The translations under genes were made by a program, and so were the position numbers. A DNA stretch of 42,793 nucleotides from Marinitoga hydrogenitolerans DSM 16785 (GTDB taxonomy: Bacteria; Thermotogota; Thermotogae; Petrotogales; Petrotogaceae). The notes under the pieces were generated by a model. It did not search any database, had not been told where the DNA came from, and worked only from the letters and a program-made list of their open reading frames with translations. Each line of letters begins with the position of its first letter. Within the stretch, counting starts at the first letter, position 1. The stretch spans positions 1-42,793 of the forward strand of contig NZ_FQUI01000005.1 of assembly GCF_900129175.1 (NCBI RefSeq). Reading direction: 5' to 3'. This document shows, in pieces, positions 1,792-28,902 of the stretch.

Positions 1792-4770
1792 ATGTATCAT
1801 AAAATTAAACATGAAGTATTAAGAATAGAAAAAATTATTGAAGATATATATCCATATCAATATATAGATATTAAATCTATTTGTAATTGGGAATTTGAAA
1901 ATGGTATAAATATTAAAAACGTCAATTCTGGATTTGAATGGGATTATGATAAGTATCCTGTAAAATTTAAGAAAAAATTTAAAGTTCCAAGAGGTTATTA
2001 TGGAGAATTTTGGTTTGGTGGTGAAACTTTAATAAAAATTGATGGAAAACCTTATGGTGAAATAAATGAATATCATAAAGAAATAGATTTATCTTTTATA
2101 GCAGACGGTAAAGAACATTTATTTGAAGCTGAAACAGTTCCATATAATCTTTTTGGTTCTCCTTCAAAAAAGAGGATTTTTGAAAGATCAAATTTAATTA
2201 AAATAAATTTTGATGTGAGAAAATTAATAAGATATCTTATTGGGATAAAGCAATTAATTGGAAATATAAAAAATAATTCATTAATTGATGAATTATCGGA
2301 TTTAATAAATAATATGTTTAAATTTATCAAGATTCCTCGAGAAACTTCGTTGTATCTTTCCACAATTGAAAGATCTCCCCAATTATATAATAAACTTTCT
2401 AATATATGGTCAAAACCATCTTTTGATAAGTTTCAAGGTGGAATTTTAGATGTTTCAGAGGCTTTAAGTTATTTAAACAATAAATTGGAATATTTAAGAA
2501 ATAAATATCCAAAAGTTGGTAAGGTTTATGTCACAGGACATGCACATATAGATTATGCATGGCTTTGGCCAATTGAAGAAACTAAAAGAAAGATAAAGAG
2601 AACATTTTCAAATGCAACTTTACTTGCTAAAAAGTATCCATATTTTACATTTATACAATCCAGTCCTCAAATGTATGAGGATATAAAAAATGATATTAAT
2701 CTGTTTGATCAGATAAAAAAACTTTCAGATAAAGGTATGTGGGATCAAAATGGCGGTATGTGGGTAGAATCTGATACAAAAATACCTTCGATTGAATCAC
2801 TAATTAGACAATTTTATTATGCACAAAAATTTTTTAAAGAAAATTTTGGAAAATACTCTAATGTATGCTGGTTACCAGATGTTTTTGGATTTTCATGGAT
2901 ATTACCTCAAATTGCAAAACAGGCAGGAATAAAGTATTTTTTCACTACTAAATTAACCTGGAATGAAAAAAATGAGTTTCCATATGATATATGTTATTGG
3001 CGTGGAATTGACGGAAGTGAAATTTTATATCATAGCTTTAATAATCCAAAAGAAGGTTATAATGGACATTTAGATGCAGAATGTGTATTAAAGACATTTA
3101 ATAATTTTAGAAATAGAGATATATTTGATGGGACGTTATTAACATATGGATATGGTGATGGGGGTGGTGGCCCTTCTGAAATACATATGATAGATTTTGA
3201 AGTAACTAATAATTTACCATATGTTCCGAATTTAATTTCCACAACAGGGAGTAAATTTTTTGAAACTTTAAACAATGATATTAAAAATAAAGAAATACCT
3301 ATTTGGGATAATGAATTATATTTTGAATTCCACAGAGCGACCCATTTTTCTCAGTTAAAAACAAAGAAATTGCATAAATTGTTAGAGGATGAATTATTTT
3401 TTACAGAATATATATTAGCTTTGGAAAATAAATCATCAAAAATGTTAGAAAAATCATGGAAGATTTTGTTAACAAGAGAGTTTCATGATATTATTCCTGG
3501 TTCTTCAATTAAAGAAGTATATGAAGAATCGGAGTCCTCATTACAAAAGGAAATAGAGAATTGTAAGGGTATAATAATTGAAGAATTAGAAATTAGTAAT
3601 GAAGCTGTATTAGTAAATTATGGTAATTATAGTAGTGATAATTATTTTATTACGGATAAATCGTTTAAATTACCTTCTCAAAAAACATATGATGGTAAAT
3701 ATCTTTATATTATATCGCCTTTAAATAAATTTTCAAATAAAAAATTAGAGAAAGGAAAACCATATATACAAAAGAAAGAAAGTGATAAAACATATAATCT
3801 TGAAAATAATAATTATTTCATAGAAATTTTGAAAGATGGTATAAAAGTTTATGATAAAAAAAAGAAAAGGTCTTTGTTTAAAGATAAAGGGAATATTTTA
3901 ATGATTTATGATGATGTTCCTTTAGCTTGGGGAGCTTGGGATATAGATTATAATTATAAGTATTTTGGTGAAAAATTAGAAATTAAGGATATAAAAATTG
4001 TTGAGGATGGAATTTTTAGAAAGGTTATAAGAACGTATTATGAATATGATGGAACTGATATAATGCAATATATTTCATTGGTTGAAGATTCAAACCGTAT
4101 TGATATAAAAACAGTGGTTAATTGGAATTTAAGAAAAAAATTATTGAAGGTTTTATTTCCTGTAGATGTATTGTCCAGGTATGCTAGATTTGATATATCT
4201 GGAGGATATATAACAAGGCCAGTTCACAAGAATACTTCATATGAAAAAGCAATGTTTGAAGTATATATGCATAGGTGGATGGAAATATCCGAGCCGGATT
4301 TTGGTGTAGCTATTTTAAATGATGGAATATATAGTGCATCAGTTGACCATAATGTTTTAGGATTATCATTAATACATGGACCGATTTATCCTGATCTAAA
4401 AGCAGATGATGGAAAACATGAATTTTTATATTCAATTATGAGTCATTCAAATAATCTTGAAGAGATATATGTTGAATCCGAAAGATTAAATAAGCCTCTT
4501 CGAATTTTAAATAAAAAAATAAAAATTGTAGATAAGTTTATTGATTTTTCACCATTGAAGGTTGTTTCTGTTTTTAAAGCAAAAAATAGATTAATAATAA
4601 GATTAGTGGAAGTTGAAGGAAAAAGGGGTTTATGTGATTTTAATATAAAATTCGATTATAAAAAGGTATATTTATCAGATATATTATTGGATAAATTAAA
4701 AGAATTAGAATCTTCAAAATTTTATTATAAACCATTTAAAATATATACATTAATTTTTGAGGAGGAATAA
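1792..4770 (+). CDS. Alpha-mannosidase, glycoside hydrolase family 38
   Basis: This 992-residue cytoplasmic enzyme hydrolyses alpha-linked mannose from oligosaccharides. GH38 signatures are clear: the metal-binding GHAHIDYAWLWP block at about 249-260, the nucleophile aspartate in CWLPDVFGF (Asp363), and the FHDIIPGSSIKEVY block. An N-terminal beta domain precedes the catalytic barrel, and a long C-terminal beta-sandwich region runs to the end, as in the bacterial enzymes of about 1000 residues. There is no signal peptide. A GTG at 1765 is in frame, but the ATG at 1792 sits 7 bases after a run of six G and is the better start. The dipeptidase follows two bases later, so the two are co-transcribed. 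Confidence 0.93.
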   Translation: MYHKIKHEVLRIEKIIEDIYPYQYIDIKSICNWEFENGINIKNVNSGFEWDYDKYPVKFKKKFKVPRGYYGEFWFGGETLIKIDGKPYGEINEYHKEIDLSFIADGKEHLFEAETVPYNLFGSPSKKRIFERSNLIKINFDVRKLIRYLIGIKQLIGNIKNNSLIDELSDLINNMFKFIKIPRETSLYLSTIERSPQLYNKLSNIWSKPSFDKFQGGILDVSEALSYLNNKLEYLRNKYPKVGKVYVTGHAHIDYAWLWPIEETKRKIKRTFSNATLLAKKYPYFTFIQSSPQMYEDIKNDINLFDQIKKLSDKGMWDQNGGMWVESDTKIPSIESLIRQFYYAQKFFKENFGKYSNVCWLPDVFGFSWILPQIAKQAGIKYFFTTKLTWNEKNEFPYDICYWRGIDGSEILYHSFNNPKEGYNGHLDAECVLKTFNNFRNRDIFDGTLLTYGYGDGGGGPSEIHMIDFEVTNNLPYVPNLISTTGSKFFETLNNDIKNKEIPIWDNELYFEFHRATHFSQLKTKKLHKLLEDELFFTEYILALENKSSKMLEKSWKILLTREFHDIIPGSSIKEVYEESESSLQKEIENCKGIIIEELEISNEAVLVNYGNYSSDNYFITDKSFKLPSQKTYDGKYLYIISPLNKFSNKKLEKGKPYIQKKESDKTYNLENNNYFIEILKDGIKVYDKKKKRSLFKDKGNILMIYDDVPLAWGAWDIDYNYKYFGEKLEIKDIKIVEDGIFRKVIRTYYEYDGTDIMQYISLVEDSNRIDIKTVVNWNLRKKLLKVLFPVDVLSRYARFDISGGYITRPVHKNTSYEKAMFEVYMHRWMEISEPDFGVAILNDGIYSASVDHNVLGLSLIHGPIYPDLKADDGKHEFLYSIMSHSNNLEEIYVESERLNKPLRILNKKIKIVDKFIDFSPLKVVSVFKAKNRLIIRLVEVEGKRGLCDFNIKFDYKKVYLSDILLDKLKELESSKFYYKPFKIYTLIFEEE

Positions 4771-10531: not shown

Positions 10532-12001
10532 TTATTCAAACTGTTTGAATTTTACTTCAATATACTTATCTTTATAAACGATAATCTGTTCAATTAATTG
10601 ATTATAGATTTCTATTAATTTATCCTCATCATAATTTTCAAGAGCTTCTATTTTTTCTTTCCATTTTTTTCTCAAATTCTCAGGTGTTTCTTCAACAATA
10701 TTAACATTAGACATTTTTATTTTATTTATTAGATCATTCTTTTCTTTCATCAAAATTTCATTTTCTTTTTTTATTTCATCATTTATAATTCCAGATTTTA
10801 TTGCCGTTGTTAAATTTATTAATTGTTCTTCAACTTCTTCCAACCTTTTTCTTAAGGCAACAATTTTATCGTTTTCAACGTTGCTTTTTAACTTTTTAAT
10901 ATAATTAATTGTTTCTGCAAAATCTTCCCAAAATTCTTCATCATTAAAATCTAATTTTAATAATTGATGTTTTACACGCAAAAAAACTTCTCTCTCTATT
11001 TTACTTTTAGATATACCAAGATATGTTCTTGTTTTTCCGTATTGCCAAGCAGAAGAAACATAACTTGGAGTTTTACCACCAGAACCAAGCATTCTATCTC
11101 CGAATTCTGTATATATTAATCCTTTTAATAAATATTTATTTTTTGTCAATGCAGAAGTCAATTTTCCATTCTTTTTATTTACTTCTTCAAAAACTTCTTT
11201 AGGAATAATAGGATCAACAAAATTTTCAATTATAATAGCATCTTTTAATTCTTCTTTCCTTTTTCTACCACGCTTTGTTCCCTTGCCATAAATGTATATT
11301 CCAGTATATAATGGGTTATTAACCATATCAAGAATTGTAGATGCTTTCCATGGATTACCTCGAGCGTTTTTTATACCTCGATCATTCAATCTTTTAGCAA
11401 TTTCAGAATATCCGATATTTTTTAATCTTAATTCGAAAATTTCTCTAACTACTTTTGCTTGTTCTTCATTTATCTTTAATTTTCTTCTTTTTTTCCCTTC
11501 CTCGTCAATAATTTGATAACTATCGAAACCATAAGGAGGATTTCCTCCCATCCAATATTTTTTTGATGCTATATCTTTCATTCGCATTTTAGTTCTTTGT
11601 GAAATCATTTCCCCTTCTAATGTATATGAAGCCAGAATAATCGTTCTTGTAAAACGTCCTTGAGGAGTACTTACATCAAAGGGTTCTAATGCAGCAATGA
11701 CAAGAACATTGTAATTTTTTTCTAAATCTTGGATTATTATTTGCCCATCAATTCCAGCTCTTGAAAAACGATCATACTTTTCAACAAGGATTACATCATA
11801 TTTTCCTTTATAAGCATTTTCTAGAAGAACATCTAATTGTTCTCTTTTCATTTTTTTACCAGAGTCTTTATCTGAAAAATAGTCAACTATTTTAAATCCA
11901 TATTGTTTTGCAAAATTTTCTATTGTTTTGAATTGTCCTTCAATTGAAATTTTTGATTGATCCTTTGTCGAAACTCTTGCATAAGCAGCAGCTTTTTTCA
12001 T
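10532..12001 (-). CDS. Large serine recombinase (phage integrase), cysteine-free
   Basis: A 489-residue site-specific recombinase that should integrate and excise the prophage. The N-terminal resolvase domain has the nucleophile Ser11 in YARVSTKDQ and the DRFSR motif at 77-81. A recombinase domain follows (about 155-265), then the region that normally forms the zinc beta-ribbon (LLKGLIYTEFGDRM at 291-304) and a long coiled coil (about 365-430). The zinc-ribbon position has no cysteines, and the whole protein contains none. It starts inside the stop of a 54-codon upstream gene. All its neighbours to 18086 are on the same strand, forming the lysogeny arm. Confidence 0.93.
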   Translation of the reverse strand: MKKAAAYARVSTKDQSKISIEGQFKTIENFAKQYGFKIVDYFSDKDSGKKMKREQLDVLLENAYKGKYDVILVEKYDRFSRAGIDGQIIIQDLEKNYNVLVIAALEPFDVSTPQGRFTRTIILASYTLEGEMISQRTKMRMKDIASKKYWMGGNPPYGFDSYQIIDEEGKKRRKLKINEEQAKVVREIFELRLKNIGYSEIAKRLNDRGIKNARGNPWKASTILDMVNNPLYTGIYIYGKGTKRGRKRKEELKDAIIIENFVDPIIPKEVFEEVNKKNGKLTSALTKNKYLLKGLIYTEFGDRMLGSGGKTPSYVSSAWQYGKTRTYLGISKSKIEREVFLRVKHQLLKLDFNDEEFWEDFAETINYIKKLKSNVENDKIVALRKRLEEVEEQLINLTTAIKSGIINDEIKKENEILMKEKNDLINKIKMSNVNIVEETPENLRKKWKEKIEALENYDEDKLIEIYNQLIEQIIVYKDKYIEVKFKQFE

Positions 12002-12162
12002 TCTTCGCTTCCCTCCTTAGAAACCTTCTGCAATGAAAGCAAAAACTTATAATAATTATAAAGTTCTTCTTGAGTAAGTTTTCGTTCATCCCAGAAAATA
12101 AATCCAAAATCTTTTAATAAGTCTAAGTCTTCTTCAGTTACAAGTAATTTAATTACTATCAT
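11998..12162 (-). CDS. 54-aa protein coupled to the serine recombinase
   Basis: This small gene starts with ATG after TGAGGTGATGCGA and its TGA overlaps the recombinase ATG, so translation is coupled. The product begins MIVIKLLVTEEDLDLLKDFG, is acidic, and is mostly helical with aromatic residues (FIFWDE, LYNYYKFL). No family recognised. Tight coupling to a large serine recombinase makes a role in recombination, such as a directionality factor, possible but unproven. Confidence 0.7.
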   Translation of the reverse strand: MIVIKLLVTEEDLDLLKDFGFIFWDERKLTQEELYNYYKFLLSLQKVSKEGSEE

Positions 12163-12273
12163 TCGCATCACCTCAGGAATATTTTAATATATTTTTGTTA
12201 AAGGGATGCATTAGATTATGGTTTGACTGTGTAATTATTTATATTATACTGAATTTTTATTATTTTATGAAAT

Positions 12274-12297
12274 AAAAAAATCCTGGAAAATCCAGGA
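12274..12297 (-). terminator. Terminator downstream of the adenine methylase
   Basis: On the minus strand TCCTGG-ATTTT-CCAGGA is followed by seven T. It ends the OLD/methylase transcript 10 bases after the methylase stop. Confidence 0.8.
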
Positions 12298-12306
12298 ATA
12301 TAGAAT

Positions 12307-13143
12307 TTAAAATACTATTGGTTTTAAAAGATTACTATAAATCATTATTTCTTTTCCTTTATATCTTCTATTTGCTGTATATTGAAGAGAATACTCGTAA
12401 TAATAAAATTTATTATAAATTTGTCTTATTTGTTCTACATTATCATAAGTAACGATCCAAGGTATTTTTTTTATAGTTTTGATTTTTTTGGATAAATTTA
12501 TATGTTCATTGTGTGTAAAATAATTTTGGTATAGTTCAGAACCTTTATTATAATATGGTGGATCAAAAAAAATGAAGTAATTTTTTCTATATTTTATTTT
12601 TTTTATTAAATCAAAAACATCTAGATTATAAATAGCTATTCGTTTTTTCATAGAAGACAAAAATTCCATTCTTTTTATTAAAGATTCTTTATTAAATCTA
12701 CAATCAATTTTATATTTTCCATTTTGACTTTTTCCACCTAAAACACCACCTTTTATTATTCCTGAAACATTTGTTCGATTAAGAAAAAAAGTAGAAAAAC
12801 CAAGATCAAATAAATCAACTTTATCTTTTATTTTTTGAATTTCTTTTTGTTTATACCATTCATCAATATTTATATTTGCTTTTCTAATTTTTTTTATAAA
12901 AAGCTCAGTATAATTCAAGGTTGAATACCAAAAAGCATATATCGATCTATCTAAATCATTTATAATTATTTTCTTTACCAAATTTTCTTTTAATAATAAT
13001 AAAGCTAATCCTGCACCACCAGCAAAAGGTTCTACATAAGTAGAACCAATTAAATTATTTTTTATTAGAATTTCTTTAATCACTGGAAATAATTTTGCTT
13101 TTCCGCCAGGATATCTTAAAGGAGATAAAGAATATCTAGCCAT
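12307..13143 (-). CDS. D12-class DNA N6-adenine methyltransferase (Dam-like)
   Basis: A 278-residue orphan-type DNA adenine methylase of the D12 family. The N-terminal RYPGGK motif (10-15), SAM-binding EPFAGGAG (38-45) and catalytic DPPY (194-197, in FFDPPYYNKG) are all present and in the order of Dam/DpnM enzymes. The ATG at 13143 follows GCAGGTG; an ATG eight codons upstream has no ribosome site. It lies 101 bases after the OLD-like nuclease gene on the same strand and has its own terminator. It may protect phage DNA from host restriction, modify sites for the nuclease next to it, or regulate the phage. The recognition sequence cannot be read from the protein. Confidence 0.9.
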   Translation of the reverse strand: MARYSLSPLRYPGGKAKLFPVIKEILIKNNLIGSTYVEPFAGGAGLALLLLKENLVKKIIINDLDRSIYAFWYSTLNYTELFIKKIRKANINIDEWYKQKEIQKIKDKVDLFDLGFSTFFLNRTNVSGIIKGGVLGGKSQNGKYKIDCRFNKESLIKRMEFLSSMKKRIAIYNLDVFDLIKKIKYRKNYFIFFDPPYYNKGSELYQNYFTHNEHINLSKKIKTIKKIPWIVTYDNVEQIRQIYNKFYYYEYSLQYTANRRYKGKEIMIYSNLLKPIVF

Positions 13144-13244
13144 GTTTTCACCTGCTTTATTTTCCAATTAAATTATACATTTTTTTTTAAAGTTTGGCCA
13201 GAAATATAATATTAAATTTAGATTTTTTTTTGTAAACATATCTT

Positions 13245-14894
13245 CTATTTCCTTTTAATTTTTGGAAGGTTATTAAGAGTAGCCAAATTATTATAAACTC
13301 TGATAAATTCATCAACAAATTCATCAACAACATCTTTATTATCCTCTTTCCAACGTTCAAAAAGATTTATTGTATCAAAAACTTGTTTAAAATGATTAAA
13401 CCATCTTTTTTCTAATATCCTATCATCGTTTTTTTCACCTTGGATATTTTTTTTAAATTTGTCAAATGTTTTATTTTTAAATAGAATATAATCAAAATGT
13501 ATTTCATTAAATTTTTGAGCTCTTTCAAAAATTTCATCATCTGGATTTAATGAATTTAAATAATTATAAATAACTAATTCTGGATTTTCATTCTCATTGC
13601 CAGGAAGAACTAAAATATTATCATATTTATTTTTAATCTCTTCAAATTTTTCTTTCTTTTTAACATCCGAATCAAAGATAATTATTGAATCATAAAATAT
13701 TTCCTCTATATACTTTCTTATTTCAATTAATGAATCTGAACCTTGTGACATTTCCAGTAATTTTACATAATCCAAATAATCTTTTAATAGTTTTTTTATA
13801 AGCCATCGCGCTTCAGCATCCTCTGAAAAAATCCTAATTTTTTTTCTTTCTTTTTCTTCCTCTTTTTTAGCATATGCTTCATTTTTTAATATAGCTTCAA
13901 TTTTTTCATATGAGTCTATATCAATATTAGATGCTTTAATATCCCCGATTCTTTTTAAGTATACTAATTTATATGGAAAAGGTTGTTGGCAATTATCTCC
14001 GCAACTATTAACATATTTTTTTAAAAAAGTTTCTATTAAAACTAATGAATGTGTTGTTGCTATAATTTGTAAATTTAATTTTTTCGACTCTTTTTTTAGA
14101 AAATCCAAAAGTTCAATTTGAGCACTTGGATGTAAAGTTGCATCTAATTCGTCTATTAACAATATACCCCCTTTGTAATTTTCATATGTTTCACGTAACT
14201 TTTTAAAAGATAATACAGCCATAATGATTTGACTTAAATTATCTTGTCCAGCTGAATTCGTTAAGAAGTCATAATATTTAGTCTCATGACCTAATGTTTT
14301 TTTAAATTTAAGATTTTTATAATTTATTTGTTTATAATTTTCATGTTCAAGATGTAAAGATAAAATGTTGTTATAGTTTTCTTGATACCACTTTATGTCT
14401 TCTTCATTTAATTTTGGTCCATTTTTTATATATAGTTCATTTTTTCGGGTTTCACCAATTGGATATAGTCTGCTTAATCCTAAATATAAAACTGGCCATT
14501 TTATTTTTGCAGATGTTTGTTTCCCGTTTGGAAGTTTCCCTCGAGGAGTTATTCTTATCCTATCATGATTTTTGTTATAATATAATCTAGTTTTCCTGTA
14601 ATCATCATAATTATCATTTCTAAAACATATAGTATATTCCCATTCTTCTTTTTTTGCTTTATCTAAATCATAATGTTTTGACAGTTTAATTATTTCTGAA
14701 AATTCTGTCCTGAACTGATTTTGTAAAAGGGGTCTCCCATCTTTTACTTTTAATTCAAAAGCATTACCAATCATTGCTAACAATGTTGATTTTCCTAAAG
14801 CGTTTTGACCTGAAATTAAAGTTATGAGTTTTCCTATTTCAAAAGTAACATTTTCAAAGTTTCGGAATTTTTTAATCTCTACTTTAGTAACCAT
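13245..14894 (-). CDS. OLD-family ATPase/TOPRIM nuclease
   Basis: A 549-residue protein with an ABC/SMC-like ATPase fused to a TOPRIM nuclease, the architecture of class 1 OLD (overcoming lysogenization defect) proteins. Walker A is GQNALGKST (29-37), a signature-like NSAGQDNLSQ lies at 214-223, Walker B plus D-loop is in GGILLIDELDATLHP (242-256), and the H-loop is ATTHS (279-283). The TOPRIM part shows FSEDAEA (357-363), FDSD (407-410) and a later ENPELVI. The ATG follows a run of seven G. In a prophage such proteins act as defence against competing phages. Gabija-type GajA is related but would have a UvrD-like partner, which is absent here; a methylase follows instead. Confidence 0.85.
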   Translation of the reverse strand: MVTKVEIKKFRNFENVTFEIGKLITLISGQNALGKSTLLAMIGNAFELKVKDGRPLLQNQFRTEFSEIIKLSKHYDLDKAKKEEWEYTICFRNDNYDDYRKTRLYYNKNHDRIRITPRGKLPNGKQTSAKIKWPVLYLGLSRLYPIGETRKNELYIKNGPKLNEEDIKWYQENYNNILSLHLEHENYKQINYKNLKFKKTLGHETKYYDFLTNSAGQDNLSQIIMAVLSFKKLRETYENYKGGILLIDELDATLHPSAQIELLDFLKKESKKLNLQIIATTHSLVLIETFLKKYVNSCGDNCQQPFPYKLVYLKRIGDIKASNIDIDSYEKIEAILKNEAYAKKEEEKERKKIRIFSEDAEARWLIKKLLKDYLDYVKLLEMSQGSDSLIEIRKYIEEIFYDSIIIFDSDVKKKEKFEEIKNKYDNILVLPGNENENPELVIYNYLNSLNPDDEIFERAQKFNEIHFDYILFKNKTFDKFKKNIQGEKNDDRILEKRWFNHFKQVFDTINLFERWKEDNKDVVDEFVDEFIRVYNNLATLNNLPKIKRK

Positions 14895-15015
14895 AAAATC
14901 CCCCCCTTTTTTTGTTACGCTACATGTCAACTTTCAGTTACATAAAAACCCGAAAAAACTAAATAAAATATAGAAAATATAATATGAAATTTCAAATTAA
15001 AAAATCAATATAGAG

Positions 15016-15519
15016 CTAAAAAGAGTATTTATATGGCTTATTATCTTTTAATTCCCATCTGGTACCGTCTGTGAAAATTACAATTGTAACCCAAACTGTA
15101 AAGTGAGTGGCCTTAGTTTCATATAATGACCAATAAGAGTAATAACCATATTCTTCTTCAGGTTTGATATTTAGTTCCTGAGCCATTAGTATATCTGCAT
15201 CAATAATACTTGAAACTTTCTCACCAAAATCATCATAAAGTTTATATTTAAGTTTAAAAGCTCTAACGTTTTTTTTGCTAACATTTTTTACTATAACAAA
15301 CATTTTTTTAGTGATATTATAATCCCCTTTTTCTAAATATCCATTTATTATTTTTAGTGGACAAGTGTCTGTGCTGTTTTCTGTTAAATATTCCCATGTA
15401 CCGTTTTCATATAAAATAACTTTTTCTCCAAATGAAGTCGTCGCTATACTATATTTTTCTTTTCCAAAAATAAAAATCGATAAAAAAATAATACTTAAAA
15501 TAAACAAAACTTTTTTCAT
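15016..15519 (-). CDS. Small exported or membrane-anchored protein
   Basis: A 167-residue protein with an N-terminal hydrophobic signal (about 1-19). A short motif of the type VILYENGTWEYL (34-45) is common near the start of bacterial envelope proteins. The rest is beta-rich with a conserved-looking ending FTDGTRWEL. It is a separate unit downstream of the toxin-antitoxin operon's terminator and upstream of the OLD-like gene. As the only exported product of the lysogeny arm it may alter the cell surface of the lysogen, for example in superinfection exclusion, but no function can be assigned. Confidence 0.6.
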   Translation of the reverse strand: MKKVLFILSIIFLSIFIFGKEKYSIATTSFGEKVILYENGTWEYLTENSTDTCPLKIINGYLEKGDYNITKKMFVIVKNVSKKNVRAFKLKYKLYDDFGEKVSSIIDADILMAQELNIKPEEEYGYYSYWSLYETKATHFTVWVTIVIFTDGTRWELKDNKPYKYSF

Positions 15520-15570
15520 ACTTTCCCCTCCTTAACATAAAATTAATATATCTAAGATATGTAAATAAAA

Positions 15571-15594
15571 AACGAGACCGCTAAGGCCTCGCTA
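15571..15594 (-). terminator. Terminator of the toxin-antitoxin-chaperone operon
   Basis: On the minus strand GCGAGGCC-TTAGC-GGTCTCGT is followed by a T-run. The hairpin touches the stop of the DUF2283 gene. Confidence 0.8.
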
Positions 15595-15852
15595 ACTAAT
15601 GTTGGTTGAAGAATATATTTTCTTTAGATCATCAAAAATATTTAAATTATAATTTTTTAATTTTCTTTCTAAATTTCCTTTTTCTAAAGTTTTTTTAAAC
15701 GATAATATTTCAATTCCTACAATTTCATCAGTATCATCATCGAAAAAAAGTATGATGTTATCGTCAATCATATCACCATATTTACTTTTTGAATCTTTTA
15801 ATTTTATATAAACAACATCACCTTTCGGACTATATCCGTATTTGTTTTTCAT
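15592..15852 (-). CDS. DUF2283-like small protein
   Basis: An 86-residue protein. The YSPKGDVVYIKL start, the acidic middle, and the IVGIEILSFKK block match the DUF2283 family, small proteins of unknown function often found beside toxin-antitoxin genes. It begins two bases after the SecB-like chaperone stop and is the last gene of that operon, so it is very likely co-expressed with the toxin, antitoxin and chaperone. Confidence 0.75.
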   Translation of the reverse strand: MKNKYGYSPKGDVVYIKLKDSKSKYGDMIDDNIILFFDDDTDEIVGIEILSFKKTLEKGNLERKLKNYNLNIFDDLKKIYSSTNIS

Positions 15853-15854
15853 AA

Positions 15855-16301
15855 TTACTCCTCCAAATTTTTCAAAGCTTTTTCCCTTTCTTCTTTTATA
15901 AAATCTGTTATATCCATTAAAGGTAAATAAATAGGTTGAGTAAATCCAAATTGTGAAGAGATCGATAATATTTTAGCCCGTGCAATTTGGAAAAGGTTTA
16001 TAATTCCAGAATTAATAACTAGAACTCTAAATTCATATTCTTCCATTTCAGGATGACCCATAAATTCTCCTTCAATATGCATTTCAAGTTTTAATAAATG
16101 TTTTCTCCCTTTTTTAAAAATCAACTTAATATTTAAACCAAGAATACAATTATAAGGAGTATTAGCAATTTTTTCTTTAAATTTTTGAATAGCTTCAATT
16201 TTTAATTCAGGTTGAAAAGGTTCATTAATTAGAGTATCATCAAATTCAAATGAAAATTTTTTTATTCTATCTGAAATTAATTGGATGTAAGACTCCTTCA
16301 T
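15855..16301 (-). CDS. SecB-like chaperone of a toxin-antitoxin-chaperone module
   Basis: A 148-residue protein with the SecB fold signature: strands alternating with charged residues (CILGLNIKLIFKKG, LKLEMHIEGEF), then NSGIINLFQIARAKILSISS and FTQPIYLPLMDITDF, matching the SecB segment that reads roughly G-LFP-R--I---T--G-PP--L-P-NF. Known systems such as M. tuberculosis HigB1-HigA1-Rv1957 use a SecB-like chaperone to fold the antitoxin. The gene order here, toxin then antitoxin then chaperone, is the same. The ATG at 16301 is 8 bases after GAGGTG; a GTG at 16310 lies inside that ribosome site. Spacing from the antitoxin stop is 12 bases. Confidence 0.82.
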   Translation of the reverse strand: MKESYIQLISDRIKKFSFEFDDTLINEPFQPELKIEAIQKFKEKIANTPYNCILGLNIKLIFKKGRKHLLKLEMHIEGEFMGHPEMEEYEFRVLVINSGIINLFQIARAKILSISSQFGFTQPIYLPLMDITDFIKEEREKALKNLEE

Positions 16302-16313
16302 TAGTTCCACCTC

Positions 16314-16832
16314 TTATGCTGCTGTAAGTGCATTTTCATTATTTTTTGATTTTTTGTTTCTGCTTGACTTTCCGTTAAAATTTTTAAATTCAACTTTTAT
16401 TTTTTTATAAGAAAAGTTCATAATTTCCATTGAAATTAATGCATCTATTTTTTCTTGAATTGTTTTACCTTCACTTTTTGCAATTTTTTCAAAAGTTTCT
16501 CTATAATTTTCTGGTATAGTATAAGTATATTTGCCATGTGGAGTTATTTTCATTTCTCCGCCTAATGCTTTAATTATCTTTAATAAAAATTTTAATGATG
16601 GATTTGAACTTGCATTTTCTAATCTTGAAATAGCTGTTTGTTTTGTGCCTATTTTTTCAGCAAGTTCTTTTTGAGAAACACCTTGTTCCATTCTCATTAA
16701 AGTTAATTCGCTTACTAAATCTATAATAATATTTTCTAATTCTTCTTCCAACGATTCTGACTTTAATTCAAATTTTTCAAACTTTCCTTCTTTGATTTCT
16801 CTGATTATATCATTTCCCATATTTTTATTCAT
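16314..16832 (-). CDS. HigA-like XRE antitoxin with C-terminal extension
   Basis: A 172-residue antitoxin. Residues 37-95 are a standard XRE/Cro helix-turn-helix (QGVSQKELAEKIGTKQTAIS then RLENASSNPSL and KALGGEMKI). About 75 residues follow, with a helical part (107-135) and a basic, asparagine/lysine-rich tail ending in ALTAA. In chaperone-dependent HigA proteins the C-terminal extension is the chaperone-addiction region, aggregation-prone until bound by SecB-like chaperone; that reading fits here but is inference. It should repress its own operon through the palindrome at 17313-17330. It starts 12 bases after the toxin gene. Confidence 0.85.
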   Translation of the reverse strand: MNKNMGNDIIREIKEGKFEKFELKSESLEEELENIIIDLVSELTLMRMEQGVSQKELAEKIGTKQTAISRLENASSNPSLKFLLKIIKALGGEMKITPHGKYTYTIPENYRETFEKIAKSEGKTIQEKIDALISMEIMNFSYKKIKVEFKNFNGKSSRNKKSKNNENALTAA

Positions 16833-16844
16833 AAAAAAACCTCC

Positions 16845-17285
16845 TTATTTTAAAGCATTATCAACTAAACTTTTCAAGTTATTGTACGCAGCTTCAATTT
16901 TTTTAGCTTTTTTTTCTGTTTTAAATTCTGCTCCTAATATAATTACATTATTATTGTTTAAATAAAATTTCTCAGGATAGAACGTAAGATAAACTCTAAA
17001 AACACCTGTACGACTTTGTGGAGGTATTCTTAGTTCATAAAGAGAAAAATTATTATAATCGTCTATATGAGCTATTTTTTTATTTTTGTGTGTTTTCAAT
17101 TTCTCTTCATCAATTAATTTTAAGATATATTTTCTTCCACCTTTATTTATATTTATTAGAAATAGTTTTAATTTTTTATAAGAGGATTTTGAGCCTTTAT
17201 TTTTAAAATCTCCTTCAACTTCTTTTTTTATTTTATTCTTATCTTCATCATTATAAATAGGGAAATAATATAAATATTCGTTCAT
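16845..17285 (-). CDS. HigB/RelE-like toxin
   Basis: A 146-residue toxin candidate, first gene of the operon. The C-terminal half has RelE-superfamily features: LYELRIPPQSRTGVFRVYL with conserved arginines (86, 92, 97), a VIILGAEFKTEKKAKK segment where HigB toxins have FXKK-T, and a final helix. RelE/HigB toxins cleave mRNA on the ribosome. The N-terminal half (1-80) is lysine-rich and longer than in minimal HigB. The start follows AGGAGAAAG. Toxin before antitoxin is the HigBA order. Identification rests on the C-terminal pattern plus context. Confidence 0.78.
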   Translation of the reverse strand: MNEYLYYFPIYNDEDKNKIKKEVEGDFKNKGSKSSYKKLKLFLININKGGRKYILKLIDEEKLKTHKNKKIAHIDDYNNFSLYELRIPPQSRTGVFRVYLTFYPEKFYLNNNNVIILGAEFKTEKKAKKIEAAYNNLKSLVDNALK

Positions 17286-17308
17286 AAATATCTTTCTCCT
17301 GCATTTGT

Positions 17309-17338
17309 ATTATATAACATATATGTTATATTTAGCAA
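17309..17338 (-). promoter_or_regulatory. Promoter and palindromic operator of the toxin-antitoxin-chaperone operon
   Basis: On the minus strand TTGCTA and TATAAT (plus-strand 17309-17314) are separated by 18 bases. The spacer is filled by a perfect 18-bp palindrome, TATAACATA/TATGTTATA (17313-17330), overlapping the -10 edge. This is the expected site for autorepression by the XRE antitoxin. Confidence 0.75.
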
Positions 17339-17465
17339 CTTGATTAAAATAAATTATTATCAATTAAGAGTTAAAATCTTTGTTTTCCTCCGTTATTCTT
17401 CTTTTTTTATATTGTGTAACAACTTTCTATAACAAATGTGAAAATTCCAAAAAAGATATAATTTC

Positions 17466-28880: not shown

Positions 28881-28902
28881 TATACTAATTTAAATTAGTA
28901 TA
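28881..28902. promoter_or_regulatory. 22-bp perfect palindrome upstream of terS
   Basis: TATACTAATTT/AAATTAGTATA is a perfect inverted repeat, flanked by AATCA and TGATT arms and an extra ATACTAAT copy at 28867. It is a probable protein-binding site controlling the terminase operon or used in packaging. Confidence 0.55.

Follow-up and report, generated by a model that had tools for sequence, protein, structure and literature searches.

A probable toxin-antitoxin-chaperone module with a SecB-fold chaperone in a Marinitoga prophage

In the model drawn up for the toxin-antitoxin-chaperone (TAC) system of Mycobacterium tuberculosis, an antitoxin addicted to its chaperone is cleared by ClpXP, releasing a toxin that arrests translation (PMC5105189, PMC6377645); its antitoxin, HigA1, ends in Val-Ala, a degron for ClpX, and is protected there by the chaperone (PMC8165232). 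TACs are also established phage-defence systems, found in an E. coli screen where most systems lay in prophages (PMC9519451). HigBAC is triggered, according to PMC11980606 (citing Mets et al. 2024), by the major tail protein of lambda, and CmdTAC by the capsid protein of T4 (PMC11618068). The presence of SecB-like genes in phages had been remarked on in 2014 (PMC4257090). The original prediction for the locus described below took a chaperone-controlled system in a phage to be new, which these phage genes and defence TACs make less warranted; TACs, defence TACs and phage SecB-like genes are all known already, and what is new here is the host group with its useful natural variation.

The DNA that we analysed, hereafter ‘the window’, is a stretch of 42,793 nucleotides from Marinitoga hydrogenitolerans DSM 16785 (contig NZ_FQUI01000005.1). 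Within it, four minus-strand genes follow each other head to tail (15592–17285), served as a whole by one promoter and one terminator; their order and the gaps between them (12, 12 and 2 bases) are as originally predicted. The features, in ascending coordinates, are:

15571–15593, minus strand: intrinsic terminator at the operon end (9-pair hairpin, -13 kcal/mol, z -3.6)
15592–15852, minus strand: DUF2283 gene, 86 aa (PF10049, E 1.7e-9)
15855–16301, minus strand: SecB-like chaperone, 148 aa (SecB fold; PF02556 matches among relatives)
16314–16832, minus strand: antitoxin, 172 aa (HTH_3, E 9.6e-15)
16845–17285, minus strand: toxin, 146 aa, a predicted divergent Gp49/HigB protein of the RelE superfamily (family profile comparison)
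17309–17338, minus strand: sigma-70-like promoter, TTGCTA-18-TATAAT (10/12 consensus matches), 5' of the toxin gene
17312–17331, no strand assigned: perfect 20-bp palindrome ATATAACATATATGTTATAT, putative operator, covering the promoter spacer and -10 box

Promoter-like sites occur in this DNA at the level seen in shuffled sequence, and the promoter owes its credibility entirely to where it lies and to the conserved operator that it overlaps. At the other end, one terminator-like hairpin was found in the region against 0.3 expected; it abuts the DUF2283 stop, in agreement with the earlier claim that this gene ends at the operon terminator. We place the start of the chaperone at the ATG at 16301, preceded by AGAGGTGG; the GTG at 16310, a mechanical call, is less likely than this pairing.

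The chaperone itself matches nothing in Pfam, NCBIfam or PADLOC, with nothing useful from PHROGs, and its predicted membership of the SecB group comes by way of its family and its modelled fold. Nine of its 18 aligned Thermotogota relatives match PF02556 (SecB), the best at 8e-8. The AF2 model, built from 11 relatives (pLDDT 85, pTM 0.81), shows four strands, a 30-residue helix, a loop and a second long helix, the arrangement by which a SecB fold is recognised. A Foldseek search of this model against the PDB, a check proposed with the original prediction, returned SecB for all of its best 19 matches (E 2e-7 to 3e-5), with Rv1957 in complex with a ChAD peptide (5mtw) among them. By sequence, a wide chaperone profile placed E. 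coli SecB first in the PDB, at an E value of only 1.8, and this result was set aside. With a SecB-like gene and a type II toxin-antitoxin (TA) pair in a single operon, in the order toxin, antitoxin, chaperone, the locus has the make-up of a TAC.

The toxin too is without a direct Pfam match, and NCBIfam, PADLOC and PHROGs gave nothing useful for it. Five of the seven members of its family match PF05973 (Gp49; best 1.1e-4), and the family profile, compared with a set of Gp49/HigB-type toxins of TAC and TA systems, scores a probability of 97% (E 5e-11). These comparisons make it, on profile evidence, a divergent member of the HigB/RelE superfamily and support the earlier designation ‘HigB-like’ at superfamily level; nuclease activity would be expected of it from its family. 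The best PDB fold match of its AF2 model (pLDDT 89) is a weak one to Vibrio cholerae HigB2 (E 0.2), the toxin profile, searched against PDB sequences, gave chance matches only, and no toxin match was found among phages. At one related locus (L035 in genome G085, about 715–1115), a toxin gene of the window's type carries an in-frame stop near its start, and the operator, antitoxin and chaperone persist.

The antitoxin can be divided into an N-terminal region, the HTH_3 domain (residues ~46–91), a shared segment (~97–142) and a TAC-specific tail (~143–172). A C-terminal extension of some 75 residues had been proposed; its first ~45 residues (YTYTIPENYRETFEKIAKSEGKTIQEKIDALISMEI) align with antitoxins that have no adjacent chaperone gene (L071, L074 and L079), and to that extent the extension was overstated, whereas the last ~30 residues are missing from these relatives and are TAC-specific. 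What stands, then, is a shorter extension absent from chaperone-free relatives, as expected of a TAC antitoxin, and we regard it as a candidate ChAD. Its end, NNENALTAA, is like the host tmRNA tag, AEENYALAA, and ClpX is present in the host. Across 17 Thermotogota TACs—partly related to each other, and scored with residue classes chosen after inspection, which makes the p values optimistic—the last two positions are free of charged, His or amide residues in 16/17 antitoxins versus 8/34 toxins and chaperones (Fisher p 2e-6), and alanine falls within the last three positions in 11/17 versus 5/34 (p 8e-4); the former pattern is present in two of six antitoxins whose loci have no chaperone gene alongside. 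Endings resembling ssrA thus appear enriched in TAC antitoxins across the Thermotogota, and the window's own fits a degron-tipped antitoxin that a chaperone could shield.

Two further ideas about the tail were tried and set aside. A candidate chaperone-recognition motif common to the antitoxin tails of the window, M. lauensis and Marinitoga camini virus 1 (MCV1), E[FY]KxF, was matched by 11–13 of 200 shuffles and is not significant; an origin by partial duplication of the chaperone N-terminus was considered as well, and for the window that similarity was reached by 87 of 300 shuffles. In M. lauensis the same comparison gives a strong similarity (1 of 300 shuffles) together with a 16-base direct repeat: AATTAAGAAATTTTCA lies at 3884–3899 of locus L089, in the antitoxin 3' end, and again at 4036–4051, in the chaperone 5' end, and reads IKKFS in both copies. 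This repeat is absent in the window; it is possibly a trace of cassette recombination.

Upstream of the toxin gene, the palindrome points to regulation of the unit by itself. In the form TAACATATATGTTA it is present as one copy per genome in four genomes, always 5' of a toxin gene of the window's type; counted by its 14-bp core, these four are G000, G006, G081 and G082. The core was not found in four Marinitoga relatives that lack the window's TA type, and recurs with one mismatch at L035 (G085). All five operator loci have ATATAACAYATATGTTATATAATA in common, and the operator has been kept across families whose toxins share only ~45% identity. We take this conservation to be the strongest single evidence for a putative autoregulated TA unit. 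A second perfect 20-bp palindrome, ATACTAATTTAAATTAGTAT, is found at 28882–28901 of the window, upstream of the terminase genes.

Turning to relatives, the chaperone family is present in 28 of 103 Thermotogota genomes. Scans of genome contigs and of viral contigs with chaperone alignment A4 gave matches only in Marinitoga and Thermotogota relatives, and none was found among plasmids. Every intact Thermotogota relative keeps the order toxin-antitoxin-chaperone, with at least four toxin types: Gp49-like, ParE-like (PF15781), a longer HigB-like type and, once (L011), a possible ADP-ribosyltransferase. M. lauensis LG1 has the window's TA together with a chaperone 77% identical to the window's, whereas in MCV1 a chaperone at 66% identity (UF08_51) accompanies a toxin and an antitoxin that bear no relation to those of the window; conversely, loci L030, L032 and L035 have the window's TA type with chaperones only ~25–27% identical. 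A FastTree phylogeny of the chaperones nests the window and M. lauensis proteins among those of ParE-type TACs, with key nodes supported at 0.93–0.98 and one at 0.69. This nesting, together with the TA types that come with distant chaperones, indicates on sequence grounds that TA cassettes and chaperones have exchanged partners.

Two of the related loci have features of their own. L011 (551–1767, in G005 C1, of the same genus) is a different TAC with a SecB-like chaperone of 137 aa and a 94-aa antitoxin ending in DIGRAA; its toxin gene reads in two overlapping frames, looks frameshifted and gives no Pfam match, and the start of that toxin, CYHGTSKENAEKI, presumably recalls ADP-ribosyltransferases, which would perhaps make the locus CmdTAC-like. 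At L080 (1083–2414, in G085, a genome that also has a TAC of the window's type) another TA pair is accompanied by a very divergent SecB-like third gene.

The module sits within a prophage, with terminase, portal, head and tape-measure proteins alongside a serine recombinase, an S24/CI repressor and an antirepressor; its nearest phages are the Marinitoga phages MPV1, MCV1 and MCV2. With these structural and lysogeny genes, the SecB fold and the gene order in hand, the original reading of a SecB-type TAC module in the prophage of a thermophile is borne out. The prophage has in common with MPV1, MCV1 and MCV2, in varying combinations, an integrase and a 57-aa gene at one flank and CI, Cro and Ant genes at the other; the content between the integrase and 57-aa gene and the CI repressor differs in each phage. 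The integrase-proximal end of this slot holds a TAC in the window, in MCV1 and in the M. lauensis provirus, and other genes in MPV1 and MCV2. Our TAC is, in short, swappable cargo of a temperate siphovirus-like Marinitoga phage. The slot as a whole (10532–17465 in the window; also L093, L094, L095 and L089) is a cargo hotspot with different defence-like genes in each Marinitoga phage: MCV1 has HerA and a nuclease there, and MPV1 has a methyltransferase and an SMC-like ATPase. Beside the TAC, at 12307–14897, the window has a D12-class adenine methyltransferase and a 550-aa AbiEii/OLD-like AAA ATPase, possibly a second defence unit.

The reading that we favour, and consider probable, is of a three-gene type II TAC carried as phage cargo, with a chaperone-dependent antitoxin, a likely anti-superinfection role, and the DUF2283 gene as passenger. 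The antitoxin would repress its own operon at the palindrome, and its unfolded tail would double as chaperone-binding site and ClpXP degron. By analogy with described TACs the chaperone probably keeps the antitoxin alive: the antitoxin would survive only while the chaperone is bound to it and, were the chaperone drawn away, would be degraded and the toxin freed. By its family a translation inhibitor that cleaves mRNA, the freed toxin would be expected to stop growth. The trigger could be a freshly synthesised structural protein of a superinfecting phage, either major tail or capsid protein, as in HigBAC and CmdTAC, and on the same analogy the lysogen would abort competing infections; phage defence or superinfection exclusion is, on this comparison, the likeliest role. 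Loss of the prophage may also be punished by the module, and DUF2283 would be a passenger in the same transcript.

The same TAC biochemistry might instead serve prophage maintenance or addiction and a stress response rather than phage defence, an interpretation to which we give a lesser, though real, chance. The module adjoins an integrase gene in the window, MCV1 and M. lauensis, and again, beside a serine recombinase, at L091, L044 and L045, a position that would suit addiction cargo; moreover, a response to stress has been described for the M. tuberculosis TAC (PMC4257090). Whilst such points are in its favour, an integrated prophage needs addiction less than a plasmid does, the slot also holds defence-like cargo (the AAA ATPase and Dam methylase here, others in MCV1 and MPV1), and in both TACs for which a trigger has been published it is a phage structural protein.

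The remaining component is the DUF2283 gene, which had been put forward as a possible fourth member of the system. It is, by position, co-transcribed with the TAC: it has a GGAGGAG of its own, begins 2 bases beyond the stop codon of the chaperone and runs to the terminator. This arrangement would suit a system of four real components, with DUF2283 as a second antitoxin or as a modulator of toxin or chaperone, and so would the company that DUF2283 keeps elsewhere. In 10 of 12 cases scanned, the ORF directly upstream of a Thermotogota DUF2283 is a PBECR2- or DUF4258-type, BECR/RelE-like nuclease-like protein, and DUF2283 behaves in this respect as an antitoxin would toward toxins of HigB's own fold class; HTH proteins make up the remaining two, and an HTH is fused to some of the DUF2283 copies themselves. 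Saying this, we think a four-component system improbable, given that DUF2283 is missing from the M. lauensis module, the closest to this one as a whole (62–77% identity), and likewise from MCV1 and all other TACs found, and that the window copy is divergent. The same four-gene order, sought across Thermotogota genomes, did not recur; DUF2283 adjoins no other chaperone match in 27 further Thermotogota genomes, gave no match next to the MCV1 TAC and none among phages. We hold it to be probably a passenger, a chance neighbour in the TAC transcript and not part of the module.

The association with nuclease-like genes suggests a function for DUF2283 in its own right. Copies directly behind PBECR2/DUF4258 (BECR-fold) genes were seen at L046, L048, L052, L096–L099, L101, L104 and L105, and since BECR nuclease-like genes are the usual upstream neighbours, DUF2283 looks like an antitoxin family. 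PBECR2/DUF4258 with DUF2283 is a candidate TA pairing and a seemingly undescribed one; no mention of DUF2283 by name was found in the literature searched. That DUF2283 proteins are genuine antitoxins of the BECR-fold PBECR2 and DUF4258 nucleases, and that one of them was recruited behind the TAC here as a second, chaperone-independent brake, or to set the trigger, strikes us as a long shot.

A general or export SecB that stands behind a two-component TA by chance, as the plain SecB fold of the chaperone would allow, is a very improbable reading: neither another SecB nor a SEC-C motif was found in the host genome, and the lack of the latter means no canonical SecA docking site, the two together making an export role unlikely, whilst the chaperone family always comes third, behind varying TA pairs, and the antitoxin tail is missing from chaperone-free relatives.

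Read as a three-gene TAC, the module extends these systems to phages of the deep-branching, thermophilic Thermotogota. Chaperones that are 66–77% identical and serve unrelated TA pairs amount to a natural experiment on which tail residues cause chaperone dependence, and the comparison proposes a function—antitoxin of BECR-fold nucleases—for a domain of unknown function, DUF2283.

Of the systems compared, the TAC of the M. lauensis LG1 provirus (L089/L014) shares the cargo slot, toxin, antitoxin and operator, with the 77% identical chaperone, and differs in having no DUF2283. MCV1 UF08_53-52-51, all three genes of which (UF08_51–53) are annotated only as hypothetical proteins, occupies the same slot with its 66% identical chaperone but has a ParE-like toxin (PF15781), a different HTH antitoxin and no DUF2283. 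CmdTAC is alike in its TAC logic, with a SecB-like chaperone as sensor and ClpP-dependent loss of the antitoxin (PMC9519451, PMC11618068), and unlike in its toxin, an mRNA ADP-ribosyltransferase where that of the window belongs to the HigB/RelE superfamily. HigBAC of E. coli C496 is a phage-defence TAC of known trigger with a HigB-type toxin, HigA-type antitoxin and SecB-like chaperone, in a host of a different phylum. Against M. tuberculosis HigB1-HigA1-SecB-TA (Rv1955-Rv1956-Rv1957), chaperone identity is ~11–12% in the fold alignment, the window tail is without the W..R...Y chaperone-binding motif, and the window module is phage-borne and followed by a DUF2283 gene; what the two have in common is the gene order, a toxin of the HigB superfamily, a SecB-fold chaperone, and an HTH antitoxin with an unstructured tail and hydrophobic C-terminus, Val-Ala there and Ala-Ala here.
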